Positions 6,518 to 15,375 of a stretch of 21,176 bases of DNA are shown here, piece by piece. Under the pieces are notes generated by a model. The model searched no databases. It was not told the origin of the DNA and saw nothing but the letters and a program-made list of their open reading frames with translations. This DNA comes from a virus. Each line of letters starts with the position of its first letter. Position 1 is the stretch's first letter. Made by a program: the position numbers and the translations under genes. The stretch covers positions 1 through 21,176 of the IMG/VR virus record IMGVR_UViG_3300027747_002967, one strand, 5' to 3'.

Positions 6518-7111
6518 ATGATAAAAGTAATTCGCGGGTATGACTCACAGGACAATTCACATATGTTCTCAATTATGGCTACAGATAAAGGATTTTCCTA
6601 CATCTTTAGAGATGACAAGAATCCTATGTTTGATTCCGCTAAGCGCGTAGAGCTTCTCATGAGCAAGATAGACAAAGATCCAAAAACTTTAAAGATTGAT
6701 GATTACCTAGCTATTGCAACTATCGGCTTATCTAACTTTTTCTTTTCTGCACCTATAGACGAAGCAAGCGAAAAGACTGCAATCTCAAGCGAAAAGCTTT
6801 CTATGCAGAGAGTATACGAAGATGAGCAAGGCCACGATATAGGGACAGGACTCGCCGTTGCGTCAGACGATATGGACCAAGTATTCCAAGACTATCCTGA
6901 ACTTTACGAGCAGCTTTCAAGTGAAGATCCAGAGCAAGAAATCACAGCCTCTGGTATGATTGAACTAGTATTTGCTGCGCTTGGCTCGGTAGATCCAAAT
7001 GGGCCTAATGCATGGCTGTTAGATTACATGGATGGTCAAACAGCAGACGGATTTGTAGGAGATATAGTGTTTGACGCTCAACCCGGAAATAACGAAACAG
7101 GGAAGAAGTAA
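6518..7111 (+). CDS. Small acidic protein of unknown function
   Basis: This 197-aa protein has a good ribosome site, AAGGAG at 6507-6512, five bases before the ATG and overlapping the stop of the giant gene, so the two are translationally linked. The N-terminus looks like a small alpha/beta fold (IRGYDSQDNSHMFSIMATD, then FSYIFRDD). The centre and C-terminus are acidic and helical (DDMDQVFQDYPELYEQL, EDPEQEI). It contains EITASGMIELV near residue 143, matching the hydrophobic-T-A-S pattern found at module borders in the neighbouring protease gene. I do not recognise a family. One base separates its stop from the next start. It may be a head assembly or head-internal protein, or a partner of the kinase protein upstream, but nothing in the sequence decides this. 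Confidence 0.8.
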   Translation: MIKVIRGYDSQDNSHMFSIMATDKGFSYIFRDDKNPMFDSAKRVELLMSKIDKDPKTLKIDDYLAIATIGLSNFFFSAPIDEASEKTAISSEKLSMQRVYEDEQGHDIGTGLAVASDDMDQVFQDYPELYEQLSSEDPEQEITASGMIELVFAALGSVDPNGPNAWLLDYMDGQTADGFVGDIVFDAQPGNNETGKK

Positions 7112-7112
7112 A

Positions 7113-10100
7113 ATGGATATCGTAGGTAAGAATGGTTCGCACGTTCTATTCTCTAACGAGAACAGCGGCGTTGTTATTGACGTTGAAGAAAACGTTGTAG
7201 TTGATTCTGGCCCACTGTCAGCCCTTATTGCTTCTGCAAAGTGGCAGGACGACAGCATAGAGTTTGATGAGTCTACTGCCGAGCTTGCGCAGGCTGCATT
7301 AACGACCCTGAACGTAAGCATCGTTTCATCCGCCGGTCGTATGTATACCATTCCTAAAGGCGCCCAGGAGGAAGCTAACCGTGCTTTAGACTGGCACAAG
7401 GAGTTTCATCGTGGTGGAACACCTGTAGGTCTTAACACAGCGCGTACGTTGGCGAAAGGTGGCCAAATTGGAATTGAAAAAGTTCGTCATATTGCTAAGT
7501 ATTTTCCTCGTCATGAAGTTGATAAGAAGGCGACGGGCTATAAGCCAGGTGAAGAAGGCTTTCCTTCTCGCGGGCGTATTGCGTGGGCTCTCTGGGGCGG
7601 AGACGCGGGATGGAAATGGGCGCAGACAATCGTCGAGCGCGAGAACAAAAAAGCGTTAAGAGCTGACGGTTACACAGATCACGGCTATGAAGAAGACGCG
7701 TATAACTACGCAACAGATACCAGCTATGACGCAGACGTTGACGCATTTAAGATTGCGGCAGCCACCGATAATGGAGCAGTTGAGTTTCTTGCCCGCATGC
7801 GTATGGACGGCTCTGGTATTGACCGTCTCTATAAGGTAGATGATGCTTATAACGTTTCCGTGTGGGATGCAGGGTTCTGGCACTCTATGCCAGATGTACA
7901 CTCTGACTTTGCAAGCTACGACCTAGCTCTTGACAATCCAGACGACACTGTTGAAAAAACTCACGTTGAGATTGATGCGGAGTCTGCACTCTTTATCTCT
8001 GCGTGTCTACAGGAAAATCCAGGACACTACGTCTCGTTGTTTGATATCAACTACGATGAAGCTGACATGATTATGAAGGCAGCCTCAGAGCTAGATTACA
8101 AACTTATAGATAGAGTTATTACAGCAGCGGTTGTTACTCCTTCTGATACTCCAGTAAATCAGGACGGAAACTATACTCCTGAAGAGCGTTCTGCTAAGGC
8201 TCAACAACAGGTACGTGATAAGACAGGAAGATTTGCTAAGGTTGGATCAAGAGTTGTTATCGGCGGAGATGCAGCTAAAGGCTCAGGAAATATTGTTTCA
8301 ATAGATCCTGCAAAGCAATCACTTAAGGTCCAGTTAGACTCCGGAAGTATTGTTGATGTACCGGCTGTTGCAACCGCTCCTGAAAGTGTTGTTACAGCTC
8401 CGGTAGACAACACTGTTGATGTAACCCCACTCGATACCTCTGGAATTCTAGGTCAACCTAGAGCTCCTATTGACCGTCCTAACGCAAGAATTCCTGGAAC
8501 TCTTCCAGCACTTTCTCAAGGAGACCTTGCGACTATTCTTTCAGATTGGCCAACGTGGGTTAAATCACAACGTGATGCGTTTAACGCCAATCCTGCTACT
8601 CCTAGCGCAGGTGTCCCAAACGCTACTCCTGAAAAGAAAAGAAAACTTATCACAGGACCAGGACAAGTTCCTCAACCTGCAAAAACAGAAAATCTAACAG
8701 CTCTTGAAAAGTTAACAGGCGTAAAGTTAATCACAGATCCATATATGCACCCTGTTCTTAAAAGCTTTCTAAACAAGAAGGTAAAAGGCTCGGACGGAAG
8801 CTACTATTATCCAAACAAGGTTTACTACCAACCTGTAGTTCGTGGCAGTGGCTCCTATGAGTCTCCTGAAGATGCAAAGAAAATAAAGGAACAAGAGACT
8901 AATCAAAATAAGCCTGGCAACTCTGTAGAGATGGCACCAGAAAGCAGCGACGTACAGCCTATGTTCTTTGCTGTAGTATCTCAGGATGATCCATCGGCTG
9001 TTCTAGACTTAATTTCTCTAGTCCCTGCAAGCTCTACGTCACTAGAGCCAATGACCTACGCACGTAAGGATAAGAAGTGGGTTAGAGATGAGTCCGTTCT
9101 TGCTGATATTAAGTCCGCTACTCCACCGCCTGTCGTACCTCTTGACGGAGAATCACTACAGAGCGTAATTCAGCAGGTTGATGGTGTTATCCCAGTTGTA
9201 GTCTCATCTGCTTACTCTGATTCAGACATCATTACCGTTCTATGGGGTGCTAACGGGAACGTCATGATGATGACAGCTGCTGGAGGACCAGATCGTAATC
9301 GCGGTAATGCTGAAACACTACGTCGCTATTGGACAAGCGGAAAAGGTGCGGCAAAGATTCGTTGGGGCACTAAGGGAGACTGGGCACGTTGTGTTCGTCA
9401 CCTCGCTAAGTACCTAGGACCTCGCGCTAAAGGCTATTGTCAACTTCGTCATAAGGACGCGATTGGTATCTACACCTCCACCCATGCAAAGCGTGACCGT
9501 GCTCGTAATAATTCTGTAGAAGAATTTGTCTCTGAAACACTACCAACTACCGAGGTTACTCCTCAAGATATGGGAATGGACATTGATGACATCATCAGCA
9601 CTCCTGATGACATCTATGACCCAACATTTGAACCTGACGATGAGATCATTATTCTTCTTATGGATGATGATTTAATGGCTCAGGAATGTGACTACGGTAT
9701 GACCGCAGCCGGTGGATTAGATCAAAATAGAGGCAACGCGGAAACACTTCGCCGTTACTGGACAATCGGTAAGGGTGGACTAAAGATTCGCTGGGGAACT
9801 CCCGGCGATTGGACACGTTGCTATCGACACCTAAAGAAGTACATGGGTCCACGTGCTAAGGGGTATTGCTCCTTGCGCCACCATGAAATGACAGGAATGT
9901 GGCCTGGCGATAAGAACAATCCTGGCCATAACAAAGGAGTATTTGCCATCGACGGTATTAACTCATATGAAGACGTATTATCTTCTTCTGTGCTTTCTGC
10001 TAGGGCTGCCGATGCGCGCCTGCGTGTCATTACAGCTGGGGCCGAGGTAGAGATGCCTGATGGCGCAGCATTTACAATTCCTCTCGTTATCCCAGAGGAT

Positions 10101-12224
10101 CTTGAGTCTGGAGACGGTCGCAAGTTTGAAAAGGGCGCGATTGAGATCCGTGAACTGCCTCTTCCTTTGATGTGGCAGATCAAGACAGATGAAGGCCACA
10201 ACGGCTCAGTTGTTGTCGGCCGCATTGATCACATGGAGCGTGTTGAAAATGGAATTGGAAACGCCACAGGAGTCTTTGACTCCGGTGCATACGGACAGGA
10301 AGCCGAGCGTCTCGTGCGCGAAGGATTTATCCGCGGTGTTTCCGCTGACCTAGATCAATTCGAGGCAAGCCAGCATATAGCTGAATTATCTGAAAATGAA
10401 GAAGATGGTAAAATCGGAACGGACAAGCTCATGATTACTCATGCGCGTGTTATGGCGGTAACTCTAGTGCCTAAACCGGCATTTCAAGAGTGCCAAATCT
10501 ACCTTGTCGATAATGACAAGACTCAGGAGGACAGCGTGACTATCCCAGACGGAGTATACGCCGATGAAATGGATCCCACTGAAGCGTCAGCGCTTGTTGC
10601 GTGTGGCCTTGTTGCAGGTTCTATCCCAGTAACACCACCTACCTCGTGGTTTGACAATCCGCAACTGCGTCAGGCAACGCCTTTGACTGTAGACGATGAC
10701 GGCCGAGTGTTTGGTCACATTGCTGCATGGCATGTTGATCATATTGGAATGTCATTCGGGACTCGTCCACCGCGCTCAAAGAGCAAGTACGCCTACTTCC
10801 ACACGGGTGTTGTTCGCACAGACGAAGGAACAGATGTTCCTGTAGGCCAATTAACATTAGCCGGAGGCCACGCTTCACTAGAAGCATCTGCTCACGAAGC
10901 TGCTCGTCACTATGACGACACTGGCTCAGCAATTGCAGATGTCCATGCAGGAGAAGATGCATTTGGTATCTGGGTATCTGGTGCTTTACGTCCAGGCACA
11001 TCTCCAGAGCAAGTTCGTGCCCTTCGTGCGTCTGCGCCTTCCGGTGACTGGCGTCCAATTAAGGGTCAGCTCGAGCTTGTGGCTGTTTGCCAGGTAAACG
11101 TACCAGGCTTCCCTATTGCACGCGCTCGAGTAGCCTCAGGTGCGGTTATGGCATTGGTTGCGGCAGGTGCTCAAGTACTTGCACGCATGAAGTCAGATCC
11201 TGTCGCAGAATTAAGCTCTAGAATTGAAAAACTGGAGCAGTTAGAAAACGCGCAACTTTCTACAAAAGCGGATGTCGCAAAGGCAAAGTTTGATATAGTC
11301 CGTCAAGAGAAGGAAGCTCAGCTTTCAATTAAGGCAGCTGAAGCTTACGCCCGTATTCATGGCGCGCCTCGCTACGATGATGAATTTGCGACTGTCTCAC
11401 GAGCAAAAAGAATGCAGCTTGCCAAGGAAGGAAGAGCTCTTCCTGACGGTTCATTCCCTATCACTAACGTTGAAGATGTAAAGAACGCGGTGCAGGCGTA
11501 CGGTAGAGCTAAGGCTGGACATAAGGCCGCGGTTCGTCGCCATATCACGAAGATGGCTAAGAAACTTGACCGACCGGATCTTGTCCCCGACGAATGGAAA
11601 TCGCTATCCACGGTAGACGAGGACGTTGATGATCTTCGTACGCGGTTAGCCGAGTTTTCCGCTAAGCTAGGCGATGATATGGGAAAAACATTAGCGGTTG
11701 AGGCTCAAGCGCAGGGTAAATATACTCCTGACACTCAACCGCGTGATGAAAAAGGCAAGTTTCGTAAAGTTCTAGCACGCATTAAGCAAGATCTTGGCGC
11801 AGCTGGTCTTCAAGACGTAGTGCAAAAAGTAGCCAAGGCAGAGCAGCTCAACGAGGTCGGTAACTACCAGGACGCAGCTAAGGCTGCCAACGATGTTATT
11901 GGTATCGTAGATAGACTAGACTCTGGAGCTCTAAATCCACAGGCACTAGAAAATGTTCGTTCCTCGGCAAAAGCCTTAGGCGAGGTTATTGCTAACCTGC
12001 CGTTGCCGTTTGGGAGTGAAACAGAGAAAGTTCGCTACAGTGATCTTCCTCCAGCTTTAAAAAATCTTATGGACGATATGCTGTCACGAGTGACAGACAA
12101 GATCGGTGCAAAAGATGCTCAAGAGGCAACCGTGGGCTTGCGGTCCTTTATGTCCGGTGGAGACTACTATACTCAGCAGGAGATTTCCTCTGAGTTAAGT
12201 AAACTTCTTCGACTATTAACCTAG
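7113..12224 (+). CDS. HK97-type capsid maturation protease embedded in a 1703-aa multi-module protein
   Basis: The start is the ATG at 7113, one base after the previous stop, with GGGAAG upstream; the in-frame ATG at 7071 would overlap the previous gene by 41 bases without a better ribosome site. In order: a basic module (about 80-178: RGGTPVGL, RHEVDKK, GRIAWALWGGDAGWKWA); an RDKTGRF plus KOW-like stretch (about 368-430); a domain ending in TPPPVVPLDGESL (about 575-715); two copies of an AETLRRYW module (720-790 and 863-933) around an acidic linker; the protease (about 960-1135: IPLVIPEDLESGDGRKF, DEGHNGSVVVGRID, RGVSADLD, MAVTLVPKPAF); a domain with GHIAAWHVDH, SGDWRPIKG and VNVPGFPI (about 1177-1350); a coiled coil; a DGSFPI/HITKMAKKL module (about 1428-1492); RDEKGKF and a helical tail. 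H1029 and S1077 fit the catalytic His and Ser. A typical prohead protease is a few hundred residues, so this gene is greatly enlarged. Confidence 0.9.
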   Translation: MDIVGKNGSHVLFSNENSGVVIDVEENVVVDSGPLSALIASAKWQDDSIEFDESTAELAQAALTTLNVSIVSSAGRMYTIPKGAQEEANRALDWHKEFHRGGTPVGLNTARTLAKGGQIGIEKVRHIAKYFPRHEVDKKATGYKPGEEGFPSRGRIAWALWGGDAGWKWAQTIVERENKKALRADGYTDHGYEEDAYNYATDTSYDADVDAFKIAAATDNGAVEFLARMRMDGSGIDRLYKVDDAYNVSVWDAGFWHSMPDVHSDFASYDLALDNPDDTVEKTHVEIDAESALFISACLQENPGHYVSLFDINYDEADMIMKAASELDYKLIDRVITAAVVTPSDTPVNQDGNYTPEERSAKAQQQVRDKTGRFAKVGSRVVIGGDAAKGSGNIVSIDPAKQSLKVQLDSGSIVDVPAVATAPESVVTAPVDNTVDVTPLDTSGILGQPRAPIDRPNARIPGTLPALSQGDLATILSDWPTWVKSQRDAFNANPATPSAGVPNATPEKKRKLITGPGQVPQPAKTENLTALEKLTGVKLITDPYMHPVLKSFLNKKVKGSDGSYYYPNKVYYQPVVRGSGSYESPEDAKKIKEQETNQNKPGNSVEMAPESSDVQPMFFAVVSQDDPSAVLDLISLVPASSTSLEPMTYARKDKKWVRDESVLADIKSATPPPVVPLDGESLQSVIQQVDGVIPVVVSSAYSDSDIITVLWGANGNVMMMTAAGGPDRNRGNAETLRRYWTSGKGAAKIRWGTKGDWARCVRHLAKYLGPRAKGYCQLRHKDAIGIYTSTHAKRDRARNNSVEEFVSETLPTTEVTPQDMGMDIDDIISTPDDIYDPTFEPDDEIIILLMDDDLMAQECDYGMTAAGGLDQNRGNAETLRRYWTIGKGGLKIRWGTPGDWTRCYRHLKKYMGPRAKGYCSLRHHEMTGMWPGDKNNPGHNKGVFAIDGINSYEDVLSSSVLSARAADARLRVITAGAEVEMPDGAAFTIPLVIPEDLESGDGRKFEKGAIEIRELPLPLMWQIKTDEGHNGSVVVGRIDHMERVENGIGNATGVFDSGAYGQEAERLVREGFIRGVSADLDQFEASQHIAELSENEEDGKIGTDKLMITHARVMAVTLVPKPAFQECQIYLVDNDKTQEDSVTIPDGVYADEMDPTEASALVACGLVAGSIPVTPPTSWFDNPQLRQATPLTVDDDGRVFGHIAAWHVDHIGMSFGTRPPRSKSKYAYFHTGVVRTDEGTDVPVGQLTLAGGHASLEASAHEAARHYDDTGSAIADVHAGEDAFGIWVSGALRPGTSPEQVRALRASAPSGDWRPIKGQLELVAVCQVNVPGFPIARARVASGAVMALVAAGAQVLARMKSDPVAELSSRIEKLEQLENAQLSTKADVAKAKFDIVRQEKEAQLSIKAAEAYARIHGAPRYDDEFATVSRAKRMQLAKEGRALPDGSFPITNVEDVKNAVQAYGRAKAGHKAAVRRHITKMAKKLDRPDLVPDEWKSLSTVDEDVDDLRTRLAEFSAKLGDDMGKTLAVEAQAQGKYTPDTQPRDEKGKFRKVLARIKQDLGAAGLQDVVQKVAKAEQLNEVGNYQDAAKAANDVIGIVDRLDSGALNPQALENVRSSAKALGEVIANLPLPFGSETEKVRYSDLPPALKNLMDDMLSRVTDKIGAKDAQEATVGLRSFMSGGDYYTQQEISSELSKLLRLLT
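9270..9479 (+). repeat. Copy 1 of AETLRRYW coding module inside the protease gene
   Basis: This segment encodes residues 720-789 of the protease protein, beginning MTAAGG and containing NAETLRRYWTSGKG, KIRWGT, GDWARC, YLGPRAKGYC and LRH. It is 50/61 identical at protein level to the copy starting at 9699, counted by hand, while many codons differ synonymously. The module is basic, rich in Arg and Trp, and has two conserved Cys. I recognise it as a small module recurring in actinobacteriophage head genes; its function is unknown to me. Confidence 0.85.
9699..9908 (+). repeat. Copy 2 of AETLRRYW coding module inside the protease gene
   Basis: This segment encodes residues 863-932, again starting MTAAGG and carrying NAETLRRYWTIGKG, KIRWGTPGDWTRC, YMGPRAKGYC and LRHHEMTGMWPG. 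Between the copies lies a strongly acidic linker (DDII, DDIYD, EPDDE, MDDD). The protease domain begins about 30 residues after this copy ends. Confidence 0.85.
10525..10538 (+). promoter_or_regulatory. Candidate internal ribosome site and in-frame GTG start in the protease gene
   Basis: AGGAGG at 10525-10530 is followed after five bases by GTG at 10536, in the frame of the protease gene. It sits just after the protease domain ends (KPAFQECQIYLVDND) and before the next globular domain. Initiation here would give a separate 562-aa protein beginning with residues TIPDGVYADE after the start. Use of this start is inferred; the site and the frame are visible. Confidence 0.55.
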
Positions 12225-12343: not shown

Positions 12344-12356
12344 AGGAGGGACAGTG
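12344..12356 (+). promoter_or_regulatory. Ribosome site and GTG start of the major capsid protein
   Basis: AGGAGG at 12344-12349 is followed after four bases by GTG at 12354. This decides the start in favour of GTG over the in-frame ATG at 12372, which lacks such a site. Confidence 0.8.
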
Positions 12357-14405
12357 GACCAAATTAAAACAATGCTTGACAGCCTGACTGAGCTTGGCGA
12401 GGATCAACTCGCCGACCTACAGACAGCCATCGTCAATGAGTTTGAAACGGTTGAAAAAGAAGATCCTACTCCTCAGACAGTAGACGCCATGACATCACTA
12501 GCCGATATGCTTGACACCGTTCGCGGTGAAATCAAGAATCGCGCAGCTGCAGCTGAAGAGCTTGCAGCACGTGCTGCGGAAGCAGCAATGCGTGTTAAAG
12601 GCCAAGAAGATGTTCCTGCAGAAGATGTCCCAGCAGACGAAATGCCTGCAGAGACTCCTGCCGAGACTGAAGGAGATCCAGCTGAAGAAGCTAAGGAAAC
12701 TCCCGAAGAAGAGAAGAAGGAAATGCCTATGGCAGCGTCAACATCTGTGGAAACAGGATCTGAGCTTTCAACCTCAGTAGAACCAACAGAAACAACAGAG
12801 ACAATCGAGCCTGTAGCTGAACTATCAGCTCCAGAAGAAGTTGTTGCAACTGAGACCGAACCAGCAGCCGAGGCTGCTGTAGAAGTTGAAGCTGCTGCAG
12901 AAGCAACAGTCGAGGCAACTCCACAAGCTGAGCTTTCAACAGTAGAAGAAGTACAAACAGAATCGACCGAACCTGAAGTTGCTGCAGAAGCACCTGCTGA
13001 AGAAGCAGTTGTAGCGTCAGCTGAAGAAGAGGTACCATCAACAGAACCAGAAACAATCGAAGCGCCAATCGCGCAGGAAGATCAGGAGGCACCAGTGACC
13101 GCCGCCGCAAACAACGAGTTGGACGCTTTAATCGAAGCTCCAGCTGATCGCCGCCCTGTTGCTCAGGTATCAGCTGCTACAGTGGCAATCACTGCCGGCG
13201 CTGACATTCCTGGCTACACAGCTGGCAGCACAATTAACGACATGAGTGGAGTTGCCGAAGCAATGGCAAAGCGTATCCACACACTACGTCGTGTAAACGG
13301 TGGAGATGGAGAGCAGCACATTGTTGCTTCTGTCACCACAAAGTTCCCAGAAGAGCGCACCCTTACACAGGATGCAGAAGCTAACTGGAACAAGATTCAA
13401 TCTGTAGTCGGCCCAGAGGCACTCGTTGCATCTGGCGGACACCAGGCTCCATTCGAAGTTAAGTACGACATTTTCAGTCTCGGCAGCAATGTACGCCCAG
13501 TCCGTGATGCTCTACCTCGCTTCCAGGCAGATCGTGGCGGTATCCGCTACATCGTTCCACCAGTTCTAGCAGATTACGGCAGCGCCGTAGGAATCTGGAC
13601 CGCTGCAAACGATTCAGCACAGACACCATCACCATCAGCTAAGACAAGCTTGACTGTAACAGCAGCATCTGAGACAACAGTCTCAACTGATGCAGTAACA
13701 CTACAGCTACAGTTTGGTAACCTTCTAACACGTGCTTATCCTGAATTGATTGCTCGTCACAACGAGCTTGGTCTTATTCAGCACGCACGCGAAGCTGAAG
13801 GAAACCTTCTAGCAAACATCGGTGCAGCTTCGACAGCAGTCACATCCACATCTCTCGTAGGTATGGGTCGCGACTTCCTAGTACAGCTTGGCCGCGCAGC
13901 GGCAGCATACCGTGCACGTCACCGTCTAGAGGCTGATGCGCCACTTCGCGCAATCATCCCAGCATGGATCAAGGACGCGATGGCAGCTGACCTTACACTA
14001 TCAATGCCTGGCGATGAATCAATGAACGCCTACGGTGAGATTGATGCATATATCGCAGCACGCGGTATCAATGCTTCTTACTCACTTGACACACCAGCTG
14101 GCGCATCACCATTTGGTGCTCAATCAGCAGGCGCAATGAACGAATTCCCAGACACATTTGTCTGGTACTTGTTCGCTGAAGGAACATTCTTGTTCCTAGA
14201 TGGTGGCACAATGGATCTCGGAATTATCCGTGACTCAACACTCGTTGGTACTAACGATTACAAGATGTTCGTTGAAACCTTCGAAAATGTTGCACTTGTT
14301 GGAGTTGAATCACTTAAGGTGACATCAACAATCAACGTAAACGGTACAGCATCTGCTCTACGCGACCTACTTGGTGGCGCATCAGCAACAACTATCGAAT
14401 ACTAA
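12354..14405 (+). CDS. Major capsid protein with N-terminal scaffold-like extension (HK97 fold)
   Basis: The product is 683 aa from a GTG start. Residues 1-90 are helical (MDQIKTMLDSLTELGEDQL, GEIKNRAAAAEELAARA). Residues 95-245 are Glu/Ala/Pro/Thr-rich and low in complexity, with imperfect ELS...EEV repeats; this resembles the scaffold or delta domain of HK97-type capsid proteins, normally removed by the maturation protease encoded just upstream. The capsid domain follows from about residue 248: ADRRPVAQVSAATVAITAGAD, FEVKYDIFSLGSNVRPVRDALPRF, the helix HNELGLIQHAREAEGNLL, and a beta-rich C-terminus (FVWYLFAEGTFLFLDGG, YKMFVETFENVALVGVE). No separate scaffold gene is present, consistent with a fused scaffold. 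An internal start at 13095 could produce a 436-aa form without the extension. A strong hairpin follows the gene. Confidence 0.92.
   Translation: MDQIKTMLDSLTELGEDQLADLQTAIVNEFETVEKEDPTPQTVDAMTSLADMLDTVRGEIKNRAAAAEELAARAAEAAMRVKGQEDVPAEDVPADEMPAETPAETEGDPAEEAKETPEEEKKEMPMAASTSVETGSELSTSVEPTETTETIEPVAELSAPEEVVATETEPAAEAAVEVEAAAEATVEATPQAELSTVEEVQTESTEPEVAAEAPAEEAVVASAEEEVPSTEPETIEAPIAQEDQEAPVTAAANNELDALIEAPADRRPVAQVSAATVAITAGADIPGYTAGSTINDMSGVAEAMAKRIHTLRRVNGGDGEQHIVASVTTKFPEERTLTQDAEANWNKIQSVVGPEALVASGGHQAPFEVKYDIFSLGSNVRPVRDALPRFQADRGGIRYIVPPVLADYGSAVGIWTAANDSAQTPSPSAKTSLTVTAASETTVSTDAVTLQLQFGNLLTRAYPELIARHNELGLIQHAREAEGNLLANIGAASTAVTSTSLVGMGRDFLVQLGRAAAAYRARHRLEADAPLRAIIPAWIKDAMAADLTLSMPGDESMNAYGEIDAYIAARGINASYSLDTPAGASPFGAQSAGAMNEFPDTFVWYLFAEGTFLFLDGGTMDLGIIRDSTLVGTNDYKMFVETFENVALVGVESLKVTSTINVNGTASALRDLLGGASATTIEY
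13084..13097 (+). promoter_or_regulatory. Candidate internal ribosome site and in-frame GTG start in the capsid gene
   Basis: AGGAGG at 13084-13089, five bases, then GTG at 13095, in frame with the capsid gene at codon 248. It lies exactly at the border between the acidic scaffold-like region and the capsid domain. A product starting here would be 436 aa, a usual size for an HK97-fold capsid protein. Use of this start is inferred from sequence only. Confidence 0.6.
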
Positions 14406-14502: not shown

Positions 14503-15375
14503 ATGGCGTTCGATGGAACATTTGAAGCTCCGAAGATCGTGCCATCGGCATTTGGTCTTTTCGTTGTAGCTAAGCCTGACTCTCCTGTAGCTGAAGACAA
14601 ATGGGTTCGAGGATTTAACCAGCGATGGGATACACGACCAAACTACGGCCGTAATTGGGATGAGACTAGTAGCACTTCTAAAGTACTTTTTAGTGACCCA
14701 GCGTCACCAAGATACACATATCACACACCTTTCTTTATTGAAGTAGAAGATCAAGGCTCGACATTAGGCATCGTAGGCGAAGATCGTTTTGCACGCGCTA
14801 TCCGTCAACTTGAAGGTATCAGCCAGGATGCTTGTGAAACCGAGCTGTGGGACGGAGCTATATCTTCCGGTCAATCATTATCTAATCCATATCTTACACG
14901 TGGCTCAGGCGCAACCGTTCTTAACAGCGGTACAGCGCTATCTCCACGTCGCGCGCTAGCACTACTAGAGCACAGAATAGCTGTAGTTTCTGCGGCAGGC
15001 GAGCAGGGAATTATTCACATGACACGTGATATGGCCGCACTTCTAAACTCAACAAATAACATGCTTTTTGACAATAAGGAAAAAGAACACCTACAAACTC
15101 TCGGTGGAACACCAGTAGTGGTCGGTTCAGGCTACTCAGGTAATGGACCGGTAGGCGTTACAGGCGCAACGGCGTCAGACACAAACAAATGGATTTACGC
15201 AACTGGCACGGTCAAGGTCCTCCTCGGCGAGCCAGATGTAGTAAACGACAATCTAGCACAAGGCTACGATGTGTCGGGGAACGCCAACAATATGCGTATC
15301 AAGGCTACCCGAGCAGCTTCGGTCTACTTCGACAGTTCAATTTATCTTGCAGTCAGAGTTGATTTAACCGCGTAA
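14503..15375 (+). CDS. Capsid-associated virion protein (unknown exact role)
   Basis: This 290-aa protein starts at an ATG eight bases after AGGA (14491-14494). It has a Trp/Arg-rich N-terminal region (KWVRGFNQRWDTRPNYGRNW) and a helix FARAIRQLEGISQDACETEL with ELWDG after it, a pattern seen in capsid-fold proteins. AAGEQGIIHMTRDMAALL and GGTPVVVGSGYSGNGP follow, which I recognise from proteins encoded next to the capsid gene in actinobacteriophages. Near the C-terminus are a beta strand carrying the tail of a capsid-like domain (VKVLLGEPDVV) and ATRAASVYFDSSIYLAVRVDL. It is probably a second capsid-fold or head surface protein; the sequence does not separate these. A hairpin lies between it and the capsid gene, so its expression may differ from that of the major capsid protein. 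Confidence 0.75.
   Translation: MAFDGTFEAPKIVPSAFGLFVVAKPDSPVAEDKWVRGFNQRWDTRPNYGRNWDETSSTSKVLFSDPASPRYTYHTPFFIEVEDQGSTLGIVGEDRFARAIRQLEGISQDACETELWDGAISSGQSLSNPYLTRGSGATVLNSGTALSPRRALALLEHRIAVVSAAGEQGIIHMTRDMAALLNSTNNMLFDNKEKEHLQTLGGTPVVVGSGYSGNGPVGVTGATASDTNKWIYATGTVKVLLGEPDVVNDNLAQGYDVSGNANNMRIKATRAASVYFDSSIYLAVRVDLTA

Follow-up and report, generated by a model that had tools for sequence, protein, structure and literature searches.

The stretch of DNA analysed here (the window) is an IMG/VR record of a virus and comprises 21,176 bases. We identified in it a gene for the major capsid protein that encodes a scaffold-like part and a capsid part in one polypeptide and that contains, between the two, a candidate translation start with a Shine-Dalgarno sequence of its own. 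The features of this gene are given below; the window clade is the group of relatives, defined further on, to which the window belongs.

12344..12349, plus strand: Shine-Dalgarno sequence of the full-length capsid gene, AGGAGG, followed by GACA (4 nt) and GTG at 12354; pairing -10.4
12354..14405, plus strand: major capsid protein gene, an open reading frame for a 683-aa scaffold-capsid fusion (PHROG 777, major head protein, E 6.6e-81)
12357..12599, plus strand: N-terminal helical domain, residues 2-82, a putative scaffold (AlphaFold2, full-length protein)
12600..13142, plus strand: acidic low-complexity linker, residues 83-263, predicted to be disordered (pLDDT < 50)
13084..13089, plus strand: candidate internal Shine-Dalgarno sequence, AGGAGG, followed by CACCA (5 bases) and GTG; its GGAGG core is invariant (93/93 window-clade genes)
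13095..13097, plus strand: candidate internal start codon GTG, codon 248, in frame (GTG in 92 and ATG in 1 of the 93 window-clade genes)
13095..13106, plus strand: border motif VTAA, possibly a maturation cleavage site, also retained by remote relatives without the start
13095..14405, plus strand: predicted short, scaffold-free capsid protein, 436 aa (predicted model, pLDDT 78; Foldseek)

An earlier sequence-only reading had proposed that AGGAGG, five bases and an in-frame GTG at codon 248 form an internal start resembling that of the gene itself, and that translation from it would give a 436-aa product beside the 683-aa form. The coordinates bear out the arrangement (13084-13089, CACCA, 13095-13097) as well as the two lengths (open reading frame 12354-14405). 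The likeness also holds, with AGGAGG, GACA and GTG at the gene's own start (predicted anti-Shine-Dalgarno pairing of -10.4 kcal/mol) and AGGAGG, CACCA and GTG at the internal site (-9.8 kcal/mol). Among the 25 in-frame internal ATG, GTG and TTG codons, that at 248 is the best paired, and the runner-up has a pairing of -6.0.

The same reading had used the AGGAGG strings of the window as an argument against chance. That argument is weak, and we rejected it as evidence for the start: the window contains 14 such strings against an expectation of 7.6, and as many as 14 turn up in 7 of 100 shuffles. The accompanying statement, that most of the strings precede start codons, is correct for bare triplets, 12 of the 14 having an ATG, GTG or TTG 3-11 bases downstream, and incorrect for evident genes, whose starts follow only 3 of the 14 (12344, 17932 and 19653, the last with an open reading frame from ATG 19666) when the codon-248 site is set aside. 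The string at 10525 belongs to another internal start, in the preceding head gene.

In the AlphaFold2 model of the full-length protein, helices occupy residues 2-9, 16-34 and 40-82, and the ten-residue blocks over residues 1-80 have pLDDT values of 76-90. A helical scaffold-like domain is thus confidently predicted for the N-terminal end of this protein, as in fusions of the HK97/T5 type; its position and composition suggest that it is a scaffold. The capsid domain begins at about residue 276 in this model, whose overall pTM is only 0.29 and with which a fold search returned nothing at E <= 0.001. Since the full-length model had given no match, the core was then modelled by itself from a deeper alignment and searched again. 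Residues 248-683, modelled with 60 sequences (pLDDT 78, pTM 0.64), matched 334 PDB chains at E <= 0.001 in Foldseek. The 50 matches listed of these 334 are all phage or virus capsid or virus-like-particle entries, among them HK97 1ohg, 8cfa, 8fqk and T5 8zvi, and their TM-scores by query length are moderate (0.32-0.45). By sequence, the capsid protein matched no Pfam family at 1e-3 and, in the PDB, only a methyltransferase at E 0.59-0.6. On the model of the core, the product of codon 248 is a complete HK97-fold domain, and the predicted internal start divides the scaffold-like part from that domain. It had been placed exactly at the border between the two; it is close to the border rather than exactly at it, as codon 248 lies in the predicted disordered linker some 16-28 residues before the folded capsid domain.

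Relatives of the capsid gene came from three sources: viral contigs, scanned six times with six capsid cores; bacterial genomes, scanned once; and 13 phage records with annotation. Four of the six viral-contig scans contributed the best 80 of about 360-380 relatives each, and the sample leans to close ones. The 381 sequences (380 loci and the window) yielded 379 capsid open reading frames, L364 and L365 giving none, and these represent 200 distinct capsid genes as judged by their last 900 bases. The border was identifiable in 191 of them. The other nine are three genes cut before the border (L008, L032 and L363, with reading frames of 406, 400 and 248 residues), four from bacterial genomes (L377-L380; the scan of the bacterial genome collection gave four distant relatives, none used at the border), and the remote L374 and L251, of which L251 served as outgroup in the border-motif comparison of remote relatives. 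Phages of Microbacterium, Arthrobacter and Gordonia are among the cultured relatives. The nearest named relative is DSL-LC01 (72.5% in the core), an assembly from a lake metagenome whose predicted host belongs to the Actinomycetia (PMC10611076). The window clade was defined on the core tree and has 93 members, the window itself (L001) being one of them; parsimony counts rest on one FastTree tree. Our border finder takes only V or M, so that identity of the residue at this position is by construction and identity of the codon is not. The equivalence of Met and Val at the border was seen independently in alignment A1.

GGAGG is found exactly five bases 5' of the start codon in all 93 window-clade genes. 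The start codon is GTG in 92 of 92 genes with no changes by parsimony, compared with a mean of 14.5 and a minimum of 2 changes over 11 conserved Val columns; across these genes, Val is encoded by GTG in 12.9% of cases. DSL-LC01, the one member left, has ATG; no other change of the start codon occurs in the clade, and this one exchanges one common start codon for another at the expense of an amino acid. Glu -3 is GAG in 93/93 genes (0 changes, against a mean of 11.5 and a minimum of 4 over 15 conserved Glu columns), and Ala -2 is GCA in 93/93 (0 changes, against a mean of 14.7 and a minimum of 7 over 24 Ala columns). Pro -1, in the spacer, has undergone 11 changes compared with a Pro mean of 11.9 and is unconstrained. 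Codon -4 varies between ATG (59 genes), CAG (27), CTG (4), CCG (2) and ACG (1) and so between M, Q, L, P and T, and its third base is always G, as the GGAGG core demands; in the 60 codons preceding the border, the third base is G in 12.6%. Thr +1 is ACC in 90/93 genes (1 change) and Ala +2 is GCC in 83/93 (4 changes). The seven codons from -4 to +2 have the fewest third-position changes (17) of 409 such intervals and rank third over all three positions. The constraint on GCA, ACC and partly GCC exceeds what a Shine-Dalgarno sequence and a start codon alone demand.

We counted as a strong start any start triplet near the border with a pairing of -8 or stronger, and drew control windows from the same genes. 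In the window clade, 92 of 92 genes have a strong start near the border, compared with 38 of 954 control windows. The sequence-only reading had looked to conservation beyond what the encoded residues require, and to loss of the site in close relatives with unchanged amino acids, to decide for or against it. The comparison did not refute it: all 93 genes keep GGAGG-N5-GTG/ATG, and neither GAG nor GTG has undergone a synonymous change. Because these two codons are fixed while the residue before GAG varies, the pattern indicates selection for a ribosome-binding site and start codon, and comparison within the clade shows that selection acts at the nucleotide level on the core of the Shine-Dalgarno sequence, on its distance from the start codon and on the start codon itself. 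Open RNA structure around the site was also considered and was set aside, with no clear signal in the window clade, where the site is not unusually open (41% of control codons equal or surpass it), or in the sister clade (0.53 of controls); only in the Arthrobacter clade is it unusually open (0.04 of controls). Rfam and tRNA scans gave nothing.

As judged from predicted pairing, the strong site is not family-wide. The Arthrobacter clade has a strong start near the border in 23 of 28 genes versus 0 of 272 control windows. There is no enrichment in the sister clade (1/48 versus 11/496 control windows) or in the Microbacterium clade (0/11 versus 3/109); GGAGG is absent from both (0/49 and 0/11), and the median pairing is -5.8 in each (46 and 10 genes). 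The GTG codon is invariant where it could be aligned, in 48/48 sister, 28/28 Arthrobacter and 11/11 Microbacterium genes, and GTG makes up 8.6-13.9% of the Val codons in these three clades (8.9% in the sister and 13.9% in the Microbacterium clade). The Gordonia phages have ATG within an aligned MAAS motif; in Phendrix the pairing corresponds to a good Shine-Dalgarno sequence (-10.7), and in GMA2, Sixama and Forza it is slight (-2.3 to -4.6). Over all 191 genes the border codon is GTG in 182, ATG in 6 and GTC in 3, the last being the remote L369, L372 and L376. Either the start is used at lineage-specific strengths or it is unused in some lineages.

Six remote relatives with 25.0-29.1% identity all have [VI][TAL]A[AS] at the border (6/6), encoded with GTC in five cases and ATC in one, and no strong start was found at the border position in these six. 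In Angelicage the codon just before the border is an ATG, with a pairing of -6.0; in Maih it is a GTG, which ranks outside the four best-paired starts there. Since the remote relatives keep the motif in the absence of a strong start, the amino-acid motif is wider than the start signal. The VTAA/VTAS motif at the border is perhaps a maturation cleavage site, and may be an older motif on which the start codon was superimposed. Counting against this reading, motifs of the same type are found at residues 279 and 435, within the capsid domain. In a paper on mycobacteriophage capsids (PMC7150772), the stem "cleav" is absent from the main text.

The gene preceding the capsid gene is a head gene whose open reading frame (7071-12224) encodes 1717 aa. 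It has a candidate internal start of its own, and a gene linked by its PHROG family to capsid pentamer genes follows the capsid gene on its other side.

10005..10535, plus strand: protease-like domain before the second internal start (Pfam Peptidase_S78, E 0.038, a weak match below the cut-off)
10525..10530, plus strand: second candidate internal Shine-Dalgarno sequence, AGGAGG, followed by 5 nt and an in-frame GTG at 10536
10536..12224, plus strand: second internal GTG and the 562-aa C-terminal product predicted from it (strong start at this border in 60/64 window-clade open reading frames)
14503..15375, plus strand: PHROG 779 gene, by PHROG profile the counterpart of "major capsid pentamer protein" genes

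The second site was compared in 130 of the 200 relatives, those with an open reading frame containing both flanking domains; in the rest the gene was mostly outside the fetched stretch or undetected. We counted the best start in a window round the border if its pairing was -8 or stronger, and control windows were treated alike. A strong start is present in 60 of 64 genes of the window clade (5/744 controls), 30 of 36 of the sister clade (1/301) and 9 of 9 of the Microbacterium clade (2/87), and in none of 19 of the Arthrobacter clade (3/105) or of two others. When an in-phase GGAGG occurs at this border, a start codon lies 5 or 8 bases on in 61/63, 29/32, 9/14 and 0/1 cases (window, sister, Microbacterium and Arthrobacter clades), compared with 3/25, 1/17, 1/16 and 0/7 for in-phase GGAGG elsewhere in the same reading frames. 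GTG, ATG and TTG interchange as the start codon among relatives. The PHROG labels conflict: 859, "portal protein", spans both parts of the protein, and 18402, "head maturation protease", matches after the second start, a part assigned to PHROG 18402/29860.

The upstream head protein has several other features. Two copies of a module of about 68 residues were recognized by eye at about 9270-9475 and 9699-9905; each opens with MTAAGG, the copies share NRGNAETLRRYWT, and PHROG 6439 matches in two stretches. The tetrapeptide [VIM]TA[AG] occurs at residues 350, 734, 877 and 987, which are possibly processing sites. The 1717-aa reading frame has PHROG families in common with two genes that are separate in DSL-LC01, of 603 and 851 aa (L239 2960-7879, compared with 7071-12224 of the window). 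A third DSL-LC01 gene, of 183 aa, comes after these two, and all three are annotated as capsid maturation protease.

We consider it highly likely that codon 248 of the capsid gene is a functional in-frame translation start that gives a short capsid protein. Across the window clade the internal start is very probably functional, and it is likely to be so in the Arthrobacter clade. Initiation at 12354 would produce the 683-aa protein, with its helical scaffold-like domain, disordered acidic linker and capsid domain, and ribosome loading at AGGAGG 13084 would produce the 436-aa capsid protein without a scaffold. Infected cells would then contain both forms, which may co-assemble into hexamers. 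The relative strength of the two sites would set the number of subunits that carry a scaffold, a proposal toward which we lean. If the start codon was superimposed on an older VTAA/VTAS motif and that motif is the cleavage site, the short form would look like a subunit already cleaved and would begin where the processed long form begins.

The likeliest alternative, although an unlikely one, is that the start is real and that the short form has a job other than scaffold dilution, for example in pentamers or in an early pool. Room for it is left by the ratio model being inferred. A role in pentamers is less likely because the next gene, at 14503-15375, shares PHROG 779 with the annotated pentamer genes of mycobacteriophages TyrionL and Nigel, and hexamers and pentamers may here come from different genes. 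The link to these genes rests on the PHROG profile, as phmmer found no match between the PHROG 779 gene of the window and the two annotated pentamer proteins.

Explanations that dispense with initiation fail because GGAGG, the spacing and the start codon are jointly constrained. It is quite improbable that EAPVTAA is kept solely as a proteolytic maturation site for the capsid protease. Such a site would agree with the border motif of all six remote relatives, with the protease-like domain weakly matched upstream, and with the same type of tetrapeptide at the four residues named above in the upstream head protein, but it leaves the synonymous invariance of GAG, GCA and GTG unexplained, along with a codon -4 that ends in G for five different residues, and the tetrapeptide is unspecific, given its two further occurrences in the capsid protein. 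Cleavage at the motif may well be true in addition to the start. Slightly less probable still is a Shine-Dalgarno-like pause that aids co-translational folding, for which the site would be suitably placed, in the linker that joins the scaffold-like domain to the capsid domain; a pause has no need for GTG or ATG at a fixed distance of five bases, yet the start codon is under as much constraint as the GGAGG, and clades without GGAGG still retain GTG. We give the least credence to another nucleic-acid signal (a protein-binding site, a frameshift stimulator, or a +1 overlapping frame ending at the TGA of GTGA), which would suit the extension of constraint to GCA, ACC and GCC and the conservation of the +1-frame TGA in 93/93 window-clade and 48/49 sister-clade genes, but GTG-ACN yields that TGA automatically, the stretch over which the +1 frame stays open upstream is not conserved (medians of 37, 8, 16 and 45 codons in four clades), so that an overlapping frame was rejected for want of a conserved open frame, and the 19-base block, which has no Rfam match, is present a single time in the window even when up to 3 mismatches are allowed.

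If the internal start of the capsid gene is taken together with that of the upstream gene, the head module may contain two successive fused genes (protease-like plus C-terminal part; scaffold plus capsid), each read as two nested proteins by means of conserved internal starts. The strengths of the sites would depend on lineage, and the capsid start would lie on a cleavage motif, so that translation alone would give a ready-cleaved subunit. We regard the chances for and against this combined reading as evenly balanced.

Capsid proteins of the HK97/T5 type are understood to have the scaffold (delta) domain on all subunits. Unlike that type, the conserved internal start here predicts subunits without the scaffold domain as well. 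The window resembles the HK97/T5 type, as described in PMC10275583, in that a single polypeptide has a predicted HK97-fold domain preceded by helical, scaffold-like residues, and perhaps also in the protease-like domain of the preceding gene (here the S78 match below the cut-off). According to the same source, the scaffold of a tailed phage is either an independent protein or forms an N-terminal domain of the capsid protein. If our reading is correct, there is a third arrangement, in which one gene gives capsid protein with and without the domain through two ribosome-binding sites, the inner one being kept base by base in the window clade. Balancing scaffold against shell in this manner would be new among viruses. 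The number of scaffolds needed per capsid would become testable in cultured phages, and capsid genes annotated as encoding a single protein may conceal a second one. Among the entries listed in searches of open-access literature there was no report of an internal start between scaffold and capsid in a major capsid protein, which is weak evidence of absence.

The C and Nu3 genes of lambda are nested in-frame genes for a protease and a scaffold. The second site at 10536, which follows the protease-like domain, resembles this layout and that of the Mu-like phages, for which PMC4378225 describes nested in-frame protease/scaffold genes with an internal start, with its own Shine-Dalgarno sequence, in the head gene. 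The proposed internal start of PaMx73 in the same source is also a Val codon. The dual-start genes lambda S and SPP1 24.1/26 likewise give two products in one frame from two starts (PMC6316719). In SPP1 24.1/26, which are lysis genes, the starts are 9 and 2 codons apart according to that source, whereas here they are separated by 247 codons that comprise a whole domain and a linker. A conserved in-frame internal start with its own Shine-Dalgarno sequence, predicted in the capsid genes of the window clade and most of the Arthrobacter clade and also at the second site, is shared with lambda C/Nu3 and the Mu-like phages. In those systems, however, the short form is the scaffold, whereas the short form predicted from the capsid gene described here is the capsid domain.
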